A stretch of DNA of 64,000 nucleotides from Candidatus Altimarinota bacterium (GTDB lineage: Bacteria; Patescibacteriota; Gracilibacteria; BD1-5; UBA6164). Shown here one piece after another: positions 20,780 to 36,070 of this stretch; position 1 is the first letter of the stretch, and every line of letters begins with the position of its first letter. The notes under the pieces are model-generated. The model had not been told where the DNA came from. It ran no database searches and saw nothing but the letters and a program-made list of their open reading frames with translations. Location: the NCBI GenBank assembly GCA_019454605.1, contig JACFNZ010000002.1:1-64000 (forward strand). Reading direction: 5' to 3'. The position numbers and the translations under genes are program-made.

Positions 20780-23700
20780 TTAACTCTTGCTTAATTTTCT
20801 CACTACATTTTTTAATAATATAGTTTGTTTGATATATTTATTTTTTAATTCAAGAGAATTTGATTGTTTCTCAAAAAGATATTTAGCAATTAAAAACTCA
20901 TTCAATCTTTCTATGTAATTACTTTTATCAGTTGGTTTTATTTTATTGTTAAAAATAATATATAAAGACAATCTTGTGATTAAACTACTTATTTTATAGT
21001 TTTCTATCTGAGCAACTTTATAGTTTTGAATTTTAATATATTTTATTACATCACTATCTTTTTTTGCATTTTCTCTTTCTTGTAGCATCTTTTTCTTTAA
21101 ATTTTCAACATATGACTTATCTTTTACAATAGGAGTATTTTTATCATCTTCATTATTTGAACTATTTGAACTAACTGGTTTTTGCCCACACATACCATCA
21201 TAATAACTAGGAGAATAATCTCACTTAGGACAATTATCTATTCTAAGTGTTACTCATCATCCACCTCAAGAGCTAGATCATCAGTTTCATCATGAAGGTG
21301 GAGGAGTTACAGGTGGTGTAACTGGAGGAGTTACAGGTGGAACTACGGCTAAGTCATTTACTAAAGCAAAATATGTAAAGTCAGTAGTTTCAAAAGATAT
21401 ATTAGATCAGTTTTTTGTTGAAGAGATTTCAGTCCAATTTATTCCATCTTCTGATTTTAGTATTTTATAATTAGCACTACTATTTGCTATAGGAAGAGTT
21501 ATTTTTATTTTTTGATTTAATTTTATTCAAACTCAAAGTGAATCAGCTCAGATTTTTAAAATATTTTCTATATTTAAGTCTTTTAATTTTTGAGTATTAA
21601 ATACTGCATTTTCTCAAATAAACTCATTTTTATTTATAAAAATTGGCAATTTAAATCATCAATTCCATATTCAAGAGTGAGTTAAAGTATCAAAAAATGT
21701 TTCTCAAGTTCAAAAACTTAAAGTTATTCAAGAGTTAAAAGATATATCTTTTACACTTCAAGAGTAGACAGTTTGTCATGAATTAGTTCATCAAGTGAGA
21801 GTTATTTCTTCAACAGGATTATTAAATAAAGTAAATCTATCAGTTGAAGTATTTCAAGAAACTAAAGTATTATTATATTTTGCAAAATAACTATCTTTAT
21901 CAAGTGGAATTATGGTATTTGTACTATTTGTTTCAAATTTTTTAGGAGTGTTTATAACTCAACTAGCCATATATTTATCATATTGATTATCAACTATATC
22001 AAGCTCATAATAATATGTTTTTTCTTTAGGCAATGTTACTTCTATATTGAAACTATTGTCATTTTTATTGTAAGTATAATTATCCATAGTCCATTTTGAG
22101 AACTCTTTTAAATTGTTTTTATCTTCTCAATACCTTAGTTTTAGATAAGATCAATCTTTAAATCTAAAGTTTTTATCATCAATTTTAAATTTTAAAGAAA
22201 CTCCCACACTTCACCACCATTTTTCTTTATACTCAACTCTCATTAAATTTGGTGTAGGAATGCTTGTATTTAAGTCATCATCTAAATTATAATTTCATCA
22301 AAAATAACTATTTACATCTATATTGTATAAAGATGAAAGTATTTTACTATAAATTGATCTATAATCAATTCAAACCCCAAACCAGTCATTGTATTCTTTT
22401 TTTGGTTCTAGTTTTCAAGTAACTTTTTGAGGAATAGAATTTTTAAAAGTATTATTTGTAGAAAGTATAAAATATCATCATCATTGTCAGTGATCAGTTC
22501 AAGCTCATCAATTTGCTTTTAGTGTTCTTCAAAATTCACTATAAATTATAATTGTCACATCTTTTCAAGCATTTTTTTCTCTTTGGAAAAAAGCAGTTAT
22601 ATCTTGTGCTAGGTCTTTTGTTCTATCATTTAAATTATAATCTCACATCAATTGCTCTCAGTGAGTGTCATATCATCCACCTCAAGGCACATAATAAGTA
22701 ATTCAAAGTCAATTATTTATAAGTCCAGAAACAAAATTCAATCTTCAACTTAAAGTCCATCACACACTTTCTTGTCAAGAATTTGCTACATTGTCTAAAG
22801 TAATAGAATTTTTAAATGTAGATTTTGAATCAAGGGGATAGGTTCTATTATTTAAAATATCTTTCAAAGTATTTATTTGATATGTTTTTTCATCATTTGT
22901 TGTAGTCCAAGTATTATTTTTGTATTTTATAGAATTTTGTCCAATATTTATAAAATTTCAATTTGTATAAATAGGTGGTCTTGAAGTTCATAAAACTATA
23001 TTATTTAATGGATTTGGATCATTTTTTATCAATTCTCAAATAAGCCCAGGAGCTCAAATACTTTGAGATCAATTTTTACTTGCCACTTGTATTTGTGCAC
23101 TATCATGAGCTCTTGAATGATTTGGAGTTCAAACTCTGTTTATTATTCTTAAATCTCAGTTATCAAAATATGGCTTAAATGCTTCTAAGCTTTTATTTAA
23201 ATATACTTCTCATAAATCTATTAAATTAGATGAATCTATTGCAAGACTTTGTCTTATTGTTTGATAATAATTAAAATCTTGTTTTGGAATAATTCAGTTC
23301 ATCCAATCGTATCAACCATTTAATTCTACCATTATTAGTTTAGAATTTTGGTTATTTATAGGAGTTGATCAAGAGACTTCATTTGACTCGTTTAAATCAA
23401 TTCAATTTAATAAAATAAACTCACTTTGAGCAAGCATAATTGCTAAAGCTCATTTTATATATTTATTTCTATAATTGTTATCATTTGGTAAAAATAATCT
23501 TTTATTTCCTTTGTCATCAAATAATAAGAAATTTTTTAGCTTTTCAGTTACTGAAGCGGGCAATTTTACTCCCAAATATAAATAATTTTCAAGTTGTTCT
23601 ATAAGTTCATCTGGATTTATATCTCTTTCTAAAGTAAAATCATTATCTACAGTAAAGTTAAAATTATTTACTATATATTTTCAAGTTCAATAAGTTATTG

Positions 23701-25363
23701 TTCAAGAATTTGTAGTTAAATTTCAAGTTTCTAAGTTGTAATTTCAAGCTATATCAATTCTATTTCAAGAGTTTGTTAATACATAAAATTCAGGCATTTT
23801 TATCGTTCAAGTAGCAAAATTTATAGTATTTCACTCAAAAGTTACTTCAAGATTTGATAAATTTATATTTCAAGAAAATGTATTTTTATTATTTGTTTCA
23901 AAATCAATATTTCAAATATTTATTTTTCTTGTAATTGGAACTAAGTCACTAAAAATATATGATCAAGTTTGGCTATTAAAAGCTATTTTTGAGGCAAAAG
24001 TAGACCATTGATTATGAAAATAAGCATTCATAAAGTTTTTATTGTCATCAAATCAACCTCTTCAAAAAATACTTCTAGGATTATATGGTATCCAATCAAG
24101 ATTTGTAAGTAAAGAAGGGTCATTTATGAGTTCATCAGTAATTTGAGGATTTTTATAGTGAAGGAGCTTTAGTGTTCAAATAGCAAGTTCTAAAGGATTT
24201 TTATATCTTAAACTATTCATCACTTCATCACTATAGAGTATATCTGAAGATAAAAGAGTTTTTATAGCAGGATAGAGTTCAAAATTATTTGATAAAATCG
24301 TATTTCAAAGATTTTTTATTTCATTTTCTGTTGGCTCATCTTTCACATAAAACTTTAATAATCTCCATGCTAAAAAATATGCTATTTCATTTTTTCTTTT
24401 TGAAAAAATATAGTCAATTGCATTGTCTCAAAGTCAATTATTTCAAGAAATAGGATTTATTATCAAAGTATTGTTTATAGTTCAACTATTTGAATCATAA
24501 AATGAAAAACTATCTCAAGAGCTTAGACTTCAAGTTAAAAAAGTTATTCAAGTTGAAGTGTTATGATAAGCATTATCAAAAGTAACTTTTTTATCACTTC
24601 AAGCTCTAAATCAAGTCAAAATTCTTGCAAATGCTGCCACATCTGTTTCTTCATAATTTCTTACAGCTAGGGGATTATCTCAGTTTTCCCAAGGTTTATA
24701 TTCTCACATCAAAAAAAGTTGCATAAGCTCTCTTGCATAGTTTTCATTTGGATAGTTTTTATCTGGTTGGTTTAATAAATCAAGATAAGTTCACATAGCA
24801 AAGCTATTTTCTGGAGTTGTTGTATCAAATAAAACTTTTTTAATCAGTGTTTTATAATTTCAAAGAGAATTATCAAAAAGTAAATCAAAGTGATTTTCTA
24901 CATCTAAATAACTAATATCATTTATCCCATTTCAAGTTCTATCTACAGGAAAAATATCTTCAAAAAGTGAAAATAATTTTCTTTTTGCTTCATAGGGGTC
25001 TATATAATATCTATAAGCATAAAATTTTCTCATAGAATTTGTATCACTTGGATTGAAAGTAGGTCATTTAAAATCATTTATTTTTTGATTGTAATCATCT
25101 CTATTTGGTCAATTTTGTGAAGGGAAAAGGAGATTTACAGCATTTTCAGCACTTCAAGCATTGTATAGATCTTGAATTATTTGAGGATTTACTCATATTA
25201 AAGCTCTTTTTGCAAGATGAGTTGCTTTTTCTATAGTCCAAGGGCTTGAGCTTCAGTTTGTAGAAACTGCATTTGAATAGTTAAAAGGAACTAGAGAAAA
25301 TAGAATTGTTAAAATTAAGCTTAAAGAGATAATTTTTTTAAATAAAAATATGTTTTTTATCAT
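20780..25363 (-). CDS. Giant secreted DUF1800 + DUF1501 fusion protein
   Basis: A 1,527-residue protein. Signal peptide at residues 1-33 ('LILTILFSLVPFNYSNA'). Residues about 45-330 and on show the DUF1800 pattern ('KATHLAKRALIGVNPQII', 'NYARELMQLFLMGEY'). A DUF1501/sulfatase-like part follows around 780-1000: 'MVELNGGYDWMNGIIP', 'AHDSAQIQVASKNGS', 'GAPGLIGELI', 'VTIIIYSEFGRTLKANGGAGTDHGQGG'. Ig-like/Fn3-like segments, a 'PPVTPPVTPP' linker and a Cys-containing helical tail close it. DUF1800 and DUF1501 are usually separate neighbouring genes with a role in secretion or the envelope. TGA occurs dozens of times. The function of the fusion is unknown. Confidence 0.82.
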
Positions 25364-28510: not shown

Positions 28511-28538
28511 AAACTAGAACGGATGTTCTAGTTTTTTT
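28507..28538. terminator. Bidirectional hairpin terminator
   Basis: Nine-bp stem AACTAGAAC / GTTCTAGTT with GGAT loop (28512-28533), A-run before and T7 after. It overlaps the stop codon of the minus-strand gene and could also end plus-strand transcription from 27.7 kb. Confidence 0.85.
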
Positions 28539-28938
28539 AAAATTTAAACAATTCATAAATTTCTTTATGATTATTTTTTATTTCTTGTTCCCACCAAGTA
28601 GTTTCATTATTACCTCAATAATGAGTTTTTGCATAAATAAATAAAATTTCACATTGATTTCTTTCTTCATCAACAAAAACAATTATTCTATTTCAAGAAG
28701 TTTTTGCTGATTCATTTGATCAAACTATTTTAAATTCACATTTTGCAATATATCAAGTATCACAAATATGTATTTTTTCAGCTTTTGTGCTCTTTAAATA
28801 CATTTCAATATCAGAAAGCATCATATGAATAAATTCAAAAGTTTTATCCCAAGATTTATATTTTTTTATAAAATTTTTCATAAAATGTCTTGTAGCGTAC
28901 TCACTTACTACAACATTATAATTTTTTCTAATAGACAT
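28537..28938 (-). CDS. Toxin of Panacea (DUF4065) module, RelE/HigB-like
   Basis: A 133-residue protein overlapping the Panacea antitoxin gene by 11 nt. Strand-rich: 'TGYIAKCEFKIVG', 'GNRIIVFVDEERNQCEILFIYAKTHYGGNNETTWWEQEI' has the Arg and late Tyr/Lys/His expected in RelE/HigB-like mRNA interferases. Panacea antitoxins pair with varied toxins, RelE/HigB-like ones among them, so this assignment rests on both fold pattern and context. Terminator at its 3' end. Confidence 0.6.
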
Positions 28939-29611
28939 TTTCTAGCTCTTCTTGAGTTATAAGTAAATACGGAATTACTTCTCTATCATATGACATCATC
29001 CAAGGAAGTTGATTGTGAGTAAATTCAACTATTTCTTGTGTTCTTTTTCATTTCCATTTTTTAGCAATATCTTGAAGCATTTGAAATTCATCATCATTTA
29101 ATTTATCATGATTTGGATTTTCAATATTTTCTATGAGATATGCAGGTCATTTTACTTTAACGCTTATTTCTTTTTCTTCGAAAAGTTCATCTAAAGTAGA
29201 AAAATAAGCATCTGGAACAGGTCATTGAGCAAATTTTTTATATTCTAAACCTGTAATTGGTACTAAATTGTAATAGTACCAAGCAAAATCAAGCAAATAA
29301 CAAAGTTTTGCTAATTTTGTTTTTGTTATTTTACCATCATCATCAGCTCAATATTTTATAAAATTTGTAATTATTTGTTTGTATTTATCCCAATCAATAT
29401 TTTTAGAACTTAAAGTTTTAGTATCAGTTTCTATAAAATTATCTATTTCAACTCATAAAAGTTCTGATAATTTTACTGCTTGTCATAAAGTTGGTTCTAT
29501 ATTTCACTTCTCTAATTTTGAAAATGTTTGACGAGTGATTCACAGATACTTAGCTACTTCATCTTGAGTAAGTTTTTTTTCTTTTCTTATGTTTTCTATA
29601 TTTGCTACCAT
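28928..29611 (-). CDS. HTH + Panacea (DUF4065/SocA-like) antitoxin
   Basis: A 227-residue protein with an N-terminal XRE helix-turn-helix ('IRKEKKLTQDEVAKYLGITRQTFSKLEKG', residues 7-35) and a Panacea domain (about 75-200; 'KITKTKLAKLCYLLDFAWYYYNLVPITGLEYKKFAQGPVPDAYFSTL' carries the K-L-x-Y...G-P-V-P signature). In known systems the Panacea part neutralises the toxin and the HTH represses the operon. Palindromes lie just upstream (29664-29703). Confidence 0.88.
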
Positions 29612-30259: not shown

Positions 30260-30281
30260 GATTTTTCTTAGTTCTTTTTAT
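30251..30281. terminator. Bidirectional terminator
   Basis: Ten-bp stem AAGAACTAAG / CTTAGTTCTT (30251-30276) with 6-nt loop and T5; it contains the stop codons of both convergent genes. Confidence 0.85.
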
Positions 30282-30579
30282 TGCAATTATTTAAAATACT
30301 TTCACAAACCCCATCAAAATTTTTCATAACTTCTTCATTTGAAAATCTTATAACTTTTAATCATAATCACTCTAAAATATGAGTTCTTTCAACATCATAA
30401 GCCTTTCATTGATCATCAAAATGACTTTCTCAATCTATTTCAATAACTAGTTTTAATTTTGGAATATAAAAATCGACTATAAAATTATCTATTGGTCTTT
30501 GTCTTAAAACCCTAATATCATGATTTTTTTGAAATTCTCTAAAAAAATTATACCAAAGTTTTTTCTCTGGTTCTGTCAT
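30268..30579 (-). CDS. DUF559 endonuclease-like protein (start uncertain)
   Basis: From ATG 30579 the product has 103 residues: 'MTEPEKKLWYNFFREFQ', 'LRQRPIDNFIVDFYIPKLKLVIEIDGESHFDDQGKAYDVERTHILEGLGLKVIRFSN'. The I-V-D-F-Y...L-x-x-E-I-D-G core is that of DUF559, a Vsr/PD-(D/E)xK-related nuclease domain. The family's usual first 15-20 residues are present upstream in frame ('LLFNPKLKERTRELRKN') but there is no ATG, GTG or TTG there, only ATT at 30633 or 30639; the frame opens right after the stop of the gene at 30649. An ATT start or coupling is possible. Confidence 0.75.
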
Positions 30580-31094: not shown

Positions 31095-33014
31095 CTAATT
31101 TATAATCTCAAAATCCATAGGAGTAAAACTATTCTTTTTATAAAATTCTAAAAATGATTTTTTATTAAATTTTATGAATACATTATACATTTTCTTAATA
31201 TTTTTTTCATCTAATTTTGACTTTGAAAATTTAGTAAAACTAGAAATATCTATATCTTTAGAGTAGATAATAAATAAAATTCAAAAATCATTAAAATAAT
31301 AACTTCCTGTGTGAATATAACCATCCTTTAGTACTTTTTTTCTTAATTTAAGTAAAATTGGCTTTAAATAATTCCAACCTATTCAAAGAAAAATATTAGA
31401 AATTTCTGAAAATCATTTTTTATTAATTGATTCTATGGATTTTATAAAACTCTTATGATCGATATTAATATTCATTTTTGGTTTTATTTTATTATTCCCA
31501 TAATAATACATATCTACTTCATGTGATAAAGATGGATCAATATGAACATATAATGATTTTTGTCATTCATGATTAGGAGGAAATCAATATGGAAATATTA
31601 ATCAATGTCTATTAAAATAAATAAACATATCTAGCTCATCAGAAAATCTTATATTATCTCTATTTATTAAATTTAGTCTTCTCTCTAGAAATAAAATAAA
31701 TTGTGATGGGAATTCAGTTATTTCAGAATAAATTCTTAATATATTAAGATAAATAGGTAAAAAATCATATTTATAATCTATATTTCATCTTTCTATTAAA
31801 TTATTTGTATAAAGGCTTATTTGTCATAAATAATCTCAAGTAATATTTAATAAAAATATTTTATTAAATTCATTTCAATTGAGTATTACTTCCTTTCATA
31901 ATTTATTTTTAAATAAAGCTTTACTATTTCAATCAATATACTCTCTCGTTCTAATAGCCTGATAATAAGCATCAGAAACTATTTTATCAATATCTTCATT
32001 TAATCATATGAGAGCTCAGTTTTTTGAAGCTTCTCTTAATATTCAAGATTTAGCTTCTAATATAAAAAGATTATTATCATATATTAAAATTCCATCAGTT
32101 TCATAAATTATACCGTTCAATTCGTATTTTAATCAATTGTAAGATATAGATCAAGGTAAAATATTTGATAAATACTTTATAGATTGTTTTTCTAAATATT
32201 CTCCTCTTTTTTTTGCATATTTTTGCCATATTTTATTATCTTTTTTCAAAATATTTTCAATATTACTCTTTAAATTCCGTAGAAAAATAATTGGAACTAA
32301 TATATAATATTGATTCTTAAATTTTAAAAATGGTTTATTGTAAATATAACTTTTATTACCATAAAACCCTCAAAAATCTCACTCATTAAATATATTATTA
32401 TCTCATAGTGTAAGTGAAAAATACTCTAATATATTTTTCTCAATATCATTATTTGGAGAAAAAATAAAAGAAAAGTTATTTAATTTTGTTTCTGATATTT
32501 GATTATAAAAATCAATTAAATTTTCTATATTAAATCATACTGTATCAGATAGATAACCATTAAAATCTTTGAAAAGTCATATGTTATAGTCATATAAATG
32601 CTGATTATAATCATTTCACTTAACAGTTAGAAAAGATGCTTTAACATTTCTAACAAAATCATCTTCTATTTGTTTTGAAAAAAAATCAGTAATTTTAAAT
32701 CACAAAAAAGAAAAATCCTTGAAAAAATCTTTTAAAAGTCTTTTAGAAGGTTTTTTCATTTTCATTTCAGACTCTGGAATAGATGAAATAATACTTATTA
32801 AGTATTCTAAAGAAGAAAAATCATTATCTCAAGCATATTTGATATCTTTAACTAAATGTACAAAAACATATTTATAAACTTCAAAAAAATCATATTCTTT
32901 TATAAATAAAAATACTCTATCTATATTTGATTTTAGATCTTCATATGATAGTTCCTCAGATAAAATTTCTAAAGATTGATTTACGACTTTTTGTGTACTC
33001 TTTTTATTAAACAT
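31095..33014 (-). CDS. Large protein B of paralogous nuclease pair, PD-(D/E)xK-like
   Basis: A 639-residue protein without a known family name. Helical N-terminal half; then 'RGEYLEKQSIKYL' (about residue 275) and 'GIIYETDGILIYDNNLFILEAKSG' (about 300-323): a D-x(n)-E-x-K arrangement expected of a PD-(D/E)xK (NERD-like) nuclease core. The following 'ASKNGA...IVSDAYYQAIRTREYI' and C-terminal part align with the protein encoded just upstream (33043-35346), so the two are tandem paralogues. Starts 28 nt after that gene's stop. Stop TAG. Role unknown; DNA or RNA cleavage in defence is a reasonable guess. Confidence 0.6.
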
Positions 33015-33042
33015 GTTTTTTAGAGAATAAAAGAATTAAACT

Positions 33043-35346
33043 TTATAAATAATATTTATCCCAACAACATCTCTTAAATTTTTTTCAACTTCAACATGGA
33101 CAAGGTCATTTTCTGGAATATTTTACTCATGTTTTTAAATTAATATAATCAGGATTTTTTCAATTATCAGTATTTCTAAATATTTGTTCTAAATTATCAT
33201 CATATTCCCATTTTTCTTTGTGATAAAAAACTGTATCAATAATTTTTTTACTATCTTTTAAACTTCACAGTCATATCCAAATATTAGATTTTTGAATATA
33301 TTTTCTTTTTTCAGATATATTTATAATTTCCTTTATTAAAACATCTTTGTTATTTGAATTAAATGACACATAAGTAATATTACCTTCTGGTATTGAGAAA
33401 TTATGATTTATATTATCTTTTAATGTTTTATTTTTTGTTTGAATTATATAATTTATTAGATTATCTCTTCATTCTCAGGATAAATCCAATAAATGAAAAA
33501 TTATATCGACTATACTTTCTTCTTTTATTTGTTTTAATTCTATAAATAGTTTTTCAAAATTATCATTTTTCCATACTTGTTTTATGTCATCTCATTTATC
33601 TGATACATCAAATCATGCTTTAATAGGATAATAATTTCTATCAATTAATTGTCAAAAATCTGTATCTAATCAATAAGAATCATATCTATCATCTTTCCGT
33701 AATTTTTTGGTTATATGGAATCATAAATATACCATTTCCTCATCAGCCTTAAAATAATCCATTAAATCAATTCTTTGTCTTATATAATAAAGAAAATCAT
33801 ATGGATCATTCAAATAATGAGTTAATAATTCTAAATCAAAAATACTTAAAAATATTCAATACGGGTCTGTTTTTTTCTTTTCTAATAATAGATTTGATTG
33901 ATGAGTTAAGGAAGGAAAGTTTTCTGTAGTAACCCCCATAATATAAACTTCATTAATTTTTTCTGATAAATTTATTTCATTTCAGTTATTATCAATAAAT
34001 TTAACTCATTTATTTAATATACTATCTCTTGAAATTAATCATTGATTATAAGCATCTTGAACAGCATGTTGAAAATCAATTTTTAGTCTTTCATCATTTC
34101 ATTTCCTTGATAATTCTGTTAATTTCTGAGATTTAACTTGTACACAAAGTGCTTTACTTCATAAAATACATAGTATATCAATGTCTGTCTTTGTTTTTCA
34201 TTTTTTTTCTTCAATTTTAACTGACTTAAATGTATTTTCTTTTCAAAAAATATTTACCAAAAAATCATATGTTATATTTTCTCAAGCATCTCATCTATTC
34301 TTTCAAGCAATATTTATATATTTTTTATCATCTATCATCCAATAATATGGACTTTCATATATTGCTTCATAAAGAATAAAAATAATTGGTACAAAATATC
34401 TATCATCGTCTAATTTTATTATTGGTTTAGCTTTTAATATATTAAAATCTCATATATTTTGAAATGTAGAATTAATTCATTTTTCCAAAGAAAATGAAAA
34501 ATTATTTAAAAAATTATCTATACCTAAAATATCTTTAAAATCAGATTTATTAATAACTAATAAATCAATTAATCATTTATAGAATGAGTTCCATCATTCT
34601 TCTCTCATATTATTAATATCATATTCTTCTCCCTGATTATCAAAAAATAGATCTACATATTGATGAATTTCCATCATAGGTAAAATTTTATCAATTTCTT
34701 CTTGAATATTCTCTTTTGGATATTTTTTTTGTAATTCTTGAATTAATTCAGGACTAGTCTCTTTAAGTGTCTTAAAATTAATTCTAGATAGCTTTTTATG
34801 TAAAATTCTTTTTATTTTAATTATAATATTCTTTACTTCATTAAATTTAAAAGATTTTTCTTTTTCAAGCCATTCTTTATCATTAACATACTTTTTATCT
34901 AAAAAGTCTAAATATTGGAAATCATAGACTCAAGATCATGCATAAAATATTGGTTCCACTAACATATTTCCATCTCCAAAAAAATCTTTTTTATCTTGTT
35001 CATAATCATTAACTTGAAATCAATTTTCAGCACCTTTTTGTAATCTTTCAATAAATGGAATCATAAATGAATTATGAAGTTCTTCCAATAAATTATAAAC
35101 TCTCTTTTTTAATTCTATAAAATCTTGTGGCGAATCTGGAAATGAAAAATCTATATCTTTTTGTATTAAAAATCAAAGTAGTAGTAAGGCTTCATTATTA
35201 CTAACTCTTGAATACATATCTACCTTATGTAGATTTTCCATATCAAAAACAAAGTCTTCTGTTAAAATCATTGACAAAACATAAATAAATCATTTTTCAT
35301 TTACTAAGTTTTTTATATCATGAATTACATCTTTTTTTTCTTTCAT
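33043..35346 (-). CDS. Large protein A of paralogous nuclease pair, with SEC-C zinc motif
   Basis: A 767-residue protein. After a helical N-terminal half comes 'YFVPIIFILYEA', 'NRGDAGENITYDFLVNIFG' and 'KTDIDILCILGSKALCVQVKSQK' (about residues 350-410), a D-x(n)-Q-x-K variant of the PD-(D/E)xK core, then 'VQDAYNQGLISRDSIL' and a C-terminal half shared with protein B. The last 30 residues are a SEC-C zinc motif: GPCPCGSGKKFKRCC, known from SecA and many accessory proteins as a metal/nucleic-acid or ribosome-contact module. First gene of a two-gene unit. The function is unknown. Confidence 0.65.
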
Positions 35347-35471: not shown

Positions 35472-35523
35472 AAGCAAAGAAAAAAGTAATGTCTAATATT
35501 AGACATTACTTTTTTCTTTGCTT
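35472..35523. terminator. 52-bp perfect palindrome, probable terminator
   Basis: A perfect inverted repeat with 26-nt arms and no spacer, centre at 35497/35498. The arms carry A6/T6 tracts, so it forms a strong bidirectional terminator about 80 nt downstream of the tmRNA end and 126 nt before the nuclease gene start. Confidence 0.8.
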
Positions 35524-35602: not shown

Positions 35603-36070
35603 TGGTGGAGCCAACGAGATTCGAACTCGTGTCTTTTGAGGATAACCAAGCAGTCTACTATTATAGTTTATTTTAATAATATTATAAATAAAAAACAAAC
35701 AAAAAACTTATAATATAATGCATTTTGAATACTTATAATTGAAAAAATACATCTTGTAAATCAAAAATAAGACTTTTAATTTATAATTTTATAGAGCTTT
35801 TAAAAGTGTAAAATATCTATAAAATTCGTAGTAGGTCAACCGACACTCATCTTAAAAGAAGACTACTTTTTTACTTTTAAACTCTAAGTTTTGACTAAGC
35901 AAAAGTTGGAGCAAAAGAAGGAGTTAAAGCTTTTTTGAAAGCATTTAGACCTTTAGCAATTCTATTGTTTGCATTTATTGTTGTTTATGATTGATTATGG
36001 AAGCCACAAACACCTCCCAAATAGCATACTTAAATCACCAAATCTCAAAATAGAAACCATAAATGACCCC
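35603..36070 (-). ncRNA. ssrA: Transfer-messenger RNA (tmRNA), divergent
   Basis: Rescues stalled ribosomes. The 468-nt RNA (5' at 36070) has a 7-bp acceptor stem GGGGTCA / TGGCTCC with two G-U pairs, an encoded CCA, and a T-arm ACGAG-TTCGAAT-CTCGT. TTTTGAG near the 5' end pairs with CTCAAAA before the T-arm (helix P2). A pseudoknot (GGGAG:CTTCC with TGTTTG:CAAACA) lies just before 'ATAGAATT' and the resume codon GCT at 35957. The tag reads AKGLNAFKKALTPSFAPTFA, stop TAG (35895-35897), ending in FA as in mycoplasmas. The D-arm lacks the usual TTCGAC. A -10 box TATACT lies 8 nt upstream of the 5' end. Confidence 0.85.

Follow-up and report, generated by a model that had tools for sequence, protein, structure and literature searches.

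The window, that is, the whole stretch of 64,000 nucleotides analysed here, carries two adjacent minus-strand genes, P0001 and P0002, in the following setting.

33043 to 35346, minus strand: P0001, 767 aa, with a helical N-terminal region, a NERD-like PD-(D/E)xK core (E356, D390, Q403-x-K405, Q435), a C-terminal alpha/beta region and a SEC-C zinc motif at residues 748–762
34132 to 34185, minus strand: strands of the P0001 active site, carrying D390 and Q403-x-K405 (residues about 388–405)
33015 to 33042, minus strand: intergenic gap of 28 nt between P0002 and P0001
31095 to 33014, minus strand: P0002, 639 aa, with the architecture of P0001 lacking SEC-C (core E275, D307, E320-x-K322, Q352)
35603 to 36070, minus strand: tmRNA (ssrA) gene, directly upstream of P0001 and with its 3′ end facing P0001 (full-length match, E 2.9e-12)
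35472 to 35523, no strand assigned: perfect 26-bp inverted repeat between the tmRNA gene and P0001, terminator-like
30268 to 30579, minus strand: gene for a stand-alone DUF559 (Vsr-like) nuclease, immediately downstream of the pair
28537 to 29611, minus strand: gene for an antitoxin with HTH and SocA/Panacea parts, overlapping a gene of 133 aa
25433 to 25996, minus strand: gene for a PemK/MazF-like toxin, with a small partner gene upstream that matches no known family
20780 to 25363, minus strand: secreted protein of 1527 aa, which we take to resemble fused DUF1800 and DUF1501 parts

The host is a tiny bacterium, probably host-dependent, in which the TGA codon specifies glycine. Read with table 11, the whole window contains almost no long open reading frames and the P0001/P0002 region contains 0 above 150 aa; with TGA as a sense codon, dense genes appear. 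The codons of the SEC-C motif, beginning TGT CCA TGT TGA AGT TGA, give CPCGSGKKFKRCC, in which TGA stands for glycine and not for tryptophan. Since the SEC-C glycines are encoded by TGA, the code is table 25, and readings with table 11 or table 4 are ruled out. Table 25 is the code of Gracilibacteria and Absconditabacteria (PMC10746230), and the relatives of the source genome include a Candidatus Gracilibacteria MAG (G045). With TGA as glycine, the coordinates, the lengths of 767 and 639 aa, the strand and the 28-nt gap given in a preliminary description of the locus are all exact, and every motif that it quoted is found in the two proteins. TGA accounts for 71% and 83% of the glycine codons in the two genes and for 74–90% in their neighbours; usage within or just below the range of the neighbours indicates that P0001 and P0002 have long been adapted to code 25 or came from a like-coded donor. 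For the same reason, a recent transfer from a standard-code host is ruled out.

The tmRNA gene falls below the Rfam gathering score and was missed by ARAGORN, and P0001 starts about 260 nt beyond its 3′ end. Its tag-like open reading frame ends in LTPSFAPTFA followed by TAG, the common ending being ALAA. The 3′ ends of ssrA genes are common integration sites, and the position of the pair suggests that P0001 and P0002 were inserted there. The tmRNA 3′ end occurs only once within the window, which leaves no att pair, and synteny with the same-genus genomes is lost, so that no empty site could be demonstrated; given that neither an att repeat nor conserved synteny was found, insertion behind ssrA is suggested only. 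On the other side of the pair, the gene couple at 28537–29611 is likely to be a toxin–antitoxin pair with a toxin of no recognised family.

The SEC-C motif, which had been noticed on P0001 alone, was identified there as Pfam PF02810 (E 4.6e-6; 26.8 bits against a curated cut-off of 20.4; CxCGSGKKxKxCC) and is absent from P0002. Apart from this tail, the two proteins are homologous. BLASTP aligned them with 25% identity over 285 aa (E = 5e-10), and a profile–profile comparison of the relatives of P0001 with the relatives of P0002 gave 99.9% (E 2e-37) over 556 columns, an alignment long enough to indicate a common architecture, SEC-C aside. The paralogy proposed from the sequence is thereby borne out in the broad sense. 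In a tree of 42 rows, P0001 groups with a homologue from a Gracilibacteria MAG (40% identity), both falling within a large clade of SEC-C proteins from plasmids, viruses and proteobacteria; P0002 groups with proteins of Salimicrobium, Rhodococcus, Streptomyces and Gordonia and is no sister of P0001, its exact position being unsure because of a long branch. With the two genes in different clades a recent tandem duplication is unlikely, a conclusion to be read with the caution that the long P0002 branch imposes. The family as a whole ranges over Pseudomonadota, Bacteroidota, Actinomycetota, Bacillota, haloarchaea and Patescibacteria.

Structures were predicted with AlphaFold for P0001 (pLDDT 81, pTM 0.80) and P0002 (pLDDT 72, pTM 0.74). 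Both models show a helical N-terminal region, a core with the order alpha-beta-beta-beta-alpha-beta, and an alpha/beta C-terminal region. The suspected PD-(D/E)xK core is thus confidently modelled in both proteins, the order of its elements being accompanied by conserved E, D and (E,Q)-x-K residues, and each combines the core fold of the superfamily with its E / D / (D,E,Q)-x-K signature. Both cores are predicted to be metal-dependent nucleases and are probably active.

We examined approximately 45 homologue loci, most with several kb of flank, by running a superfamily profile against six-frame translations. In none of them does a second family member lie beside the homologue, and the frameshifted or IS-split copies (Salmonella, one viral contig, Nitrosomonas, Lactococcus) proved to be single genes in pieces. 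The recurrence of the pair in unrelated genomes that would mark a conserved two-gene defence system was therefore not seen, and the ‘tandem unit’ of the preliminary description did not hold up: as there is no other pair and the tree places the two genes in different clades, the arrangement looks like stacking. Presence is patchy (one of four same-genus genomes). Once SEC-C-only matches had been set aside, relatives of P0001 were found in 2 other genomes among the 99 relatives searched, and one more in a further same-class genome; a counterpart of P0002 was absent from the other 379 genomes of the phylum that were searched. P0002-type scans of viral contigs (A3; Streptomyces protein) gave no matches, tblastn found no phage record matching P0001 or P0002, and a scan with the Photobacterium protein returned SEC-C-only matches, as did most matches of the genome-contig scan.

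The layout in the window would nevertheless suit a hetero-oligomeric nuclease, an obligate two-subunit defence system in which P0001, by way of SEC-C, recognises or recruits and P0002 cuts or regulates. The genes share a strand and a 28-nt spacing, which is compatible with co-transcription; they are homologous over their full length with both cores intact, and their common adaptation to code 25 (71% and 83% TGA among glycine codons) may mean that they have long been together. Against such a system stand the lack of the pair at any other locus examined, the different clades of the two proteins, and a copy in an E. coli satellite, an element under strict size limits, that is a single gene, and we regard it as unlikely. 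Quite unlikely, too, is a reading in which P0001 and P0002 would make up an unnamed defence nuclease of two subunits in a code-25 Gracilibacterium, the SEC-C subunit anchoring the complex on ribosomes or on nucleic acid of the phage and the QxK site working jointly with the ExK site.

The neighbourhoods of the homologues were surveyed with PADLOC and from existing annotation, as the preliminary description had proposed, and defence genes are often found there. P0002-type genes abut HmaA, with HmaB following, on a Gordonia plasmid (L031, 3132–11958) and adjoin Avs3a in Rhodococcus; a P0001-type gene adjoins Mokosh MkoA and MkoB in Agrobacterium, and further homologues adjoin PDC-S39 and PDC-S20. 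PADLOC also placed Tmn beside the homologue in genome G041 and a type III restriction (res) subunit beside the Ruminococcus homologue. The Shewanella homologue adjoins an annotated type I R-M locus, and in a same-class genome (L272, 4064–13175) such a locus holds a P0001 homologue between its HsdS and HsdM genes, with HsdR beyond. Lying between HmaA and HmaB, the Gordonia gene resembles an extra subunit of the Hma operon. The homologue in G041, on a short contig (L033, 2–5325) that may be a contaminant, contains no TGA codons and directly precedes the Tmn gene.

In E. coli GD33 and A20, a homologue of 698 aa (33% over 489 aa to P0001) stands alone between psu and the integrase gene in a P4-like satellite that sits at ssrA. 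The psu–int interval of P4-like elements is a documented hotspot of anti-phage genes; Rousset et al. gathered such systems from it and tested them (PMC9122126). This position is the strongest hint of function, and solitary homologues occur both in a defence hotspot and beside defence genes. Together, the defence-rich neighbourhoods and the P4 hotspot lend support to a likely defence role, which had been raised as possible from sequence, although plasmids and mobile DNA weigh heavily in the survey, which had no matched control set. Several observations weigh against defence: the Azonexus, Diaphorobacter, Halobaculum and Exiguobacterium loci have no recognisable defence neighbour, the neighbours of the pair in the window are toxin–antitoxin-like genes and the DUF559 nuclease gene only, and a literature search found no activity reported for any family member; we, too, know of none.

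A nuclease family is by itself no proof of defence, and many homologues lie on plasmids or near integrases or recombinases, as would be expected of nucleases serving DNA repair, plasmid stability or transfer. Such a role is decidedly improbable given that presence in the genus is patchy and that homologues repeatedly lie right beside defence operons and in the P4 hotspot. An arrangement in which one copy has lost catalysis and regulates the other, for which QxK in one protein and ExK in the other might speak, is highly improbable, as the whole P0001 clade has QxK and keeps E, D and K, and the whole P0002 clade has ExK. Indeed, the positions of E356, D390, K405 and Q435 (P0001 numbering; the Q in a helix) are invariant across 34 aligned homologues, and two positions ahead of the lysine all rows of the P0001 clade have Q and all rows of the P0002 clade have E. 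QxK is the Mrr-type variant of the active site. The earlier suggestion that one protein may be inactive is accordingly not supported; the difference marks the two clades.

Our preferred reading, which we consider probable though by no means secure, is that P0001 and P0002 both belong to one widespread unnamed family of anti-phage nucleases, that each is a separate single-gene system and probably active, and that the two are stacked at this locus. The helical N-terminal region would be a presumed sensor or regulator, and a trigger upon infection would release the PD-(D/E)xK core; the released core, acting as a metal-dependent DNase, would cut DNA, so that the phage would be stopped directly or by killing of the cell. 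The SEC-C zinc module of P0001 probably docks the protein to nucleic acid, a ribosome or a protein partner. The two genes, of different lineages, would have been acquired separately and stacked behind ssrA, by chance or for additive protection, and would not form a conserved two-part machine. On this reading the locus draws attention to a broad family whose members are candidate solo defence nucleases, the family being of more interest than the pairing, and it shows such genes in a bacterium that is streamlined and has recoded a stop codon. The copy in the E. coli P4 satellite makes the defence idea directly testable.

As the preliminary description had supposed, no named system covers these proteins: the 2023 PADLOC models and the 2026 NCBIfam leave the family uncovered beyond the SEC-C tail, which is where the PADLOC models match in the P0001 clade, and weak matches to the core in the P0002 clade, among them CARF_PDDEXK (PADLOC) over the core of P0002 (3.5e-4). 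NERD nucleases are related in the core; PF08378 scored 17.9 bits on P0001, below its cut-off of 22.1, and rose above the Pfam cut-off in four homologues, but P0001 has large additional N- and C-terminal regions. The CRISPR ancillary nucleases Can2 and Card1 have the same type of PD-(D/E)xK core and rank high among the fold matches; they differ in their CARF domain, to which P0001 and P0002 show no match, and no type III CRISPR genes appear in the annotation of the homologue loci read.

Foldseek against the PDB ranked Upx (9wuf) first for both models, followed by Can2 and the nickase N.BspD6I. Upx, reportedly a PD-(D/E)xK protein among the defence systems of Gao et al. (2020), is thus the best match of solved structure (E 1e-3 over 370 columns and 7e-5 over 519 columns). 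It is, however, larger (1212 aa) and the overlap is partial, with TM-scores of 0.25–0.30 that are low because only part of each large protein is covered. As neither a full-length fold match nor, on searching, a match at the sequence level was found, the partial overlap indicates a common fold and domain order and not membership.

GapS1, the Gamma-Mobile-Trio anti-phage protein, matches P0002 weakly (NCBIfam NF047931, 1.3e-4, 21 bits, residues 220–366 only) as well as its Rhodococcus (8.9e-7) and Gordonia (5e-4) relatives. These matches of 21–28 bits, against the 320 bits along the whole protein expected of a member, cover the pre-core module and the PD-(D/E)xK core. A Klebsiella prophage is named as carrier of a GAPS1-like protein (PMC12774648), and a set of that prophage protein and four plasmid relatives gave 93.7% (E 2e-7, 207 columns) in profile–profile comparison with the P0002 clade and no significant match with the P0001 clade. 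The N- and C-terminal parts do not align; the order E...VD...(D/E)xK...Q is shared, and GapS1 is likewise a single gene. The family of P0001 and P0002 is best read as distantly GapS1/Upx-like.
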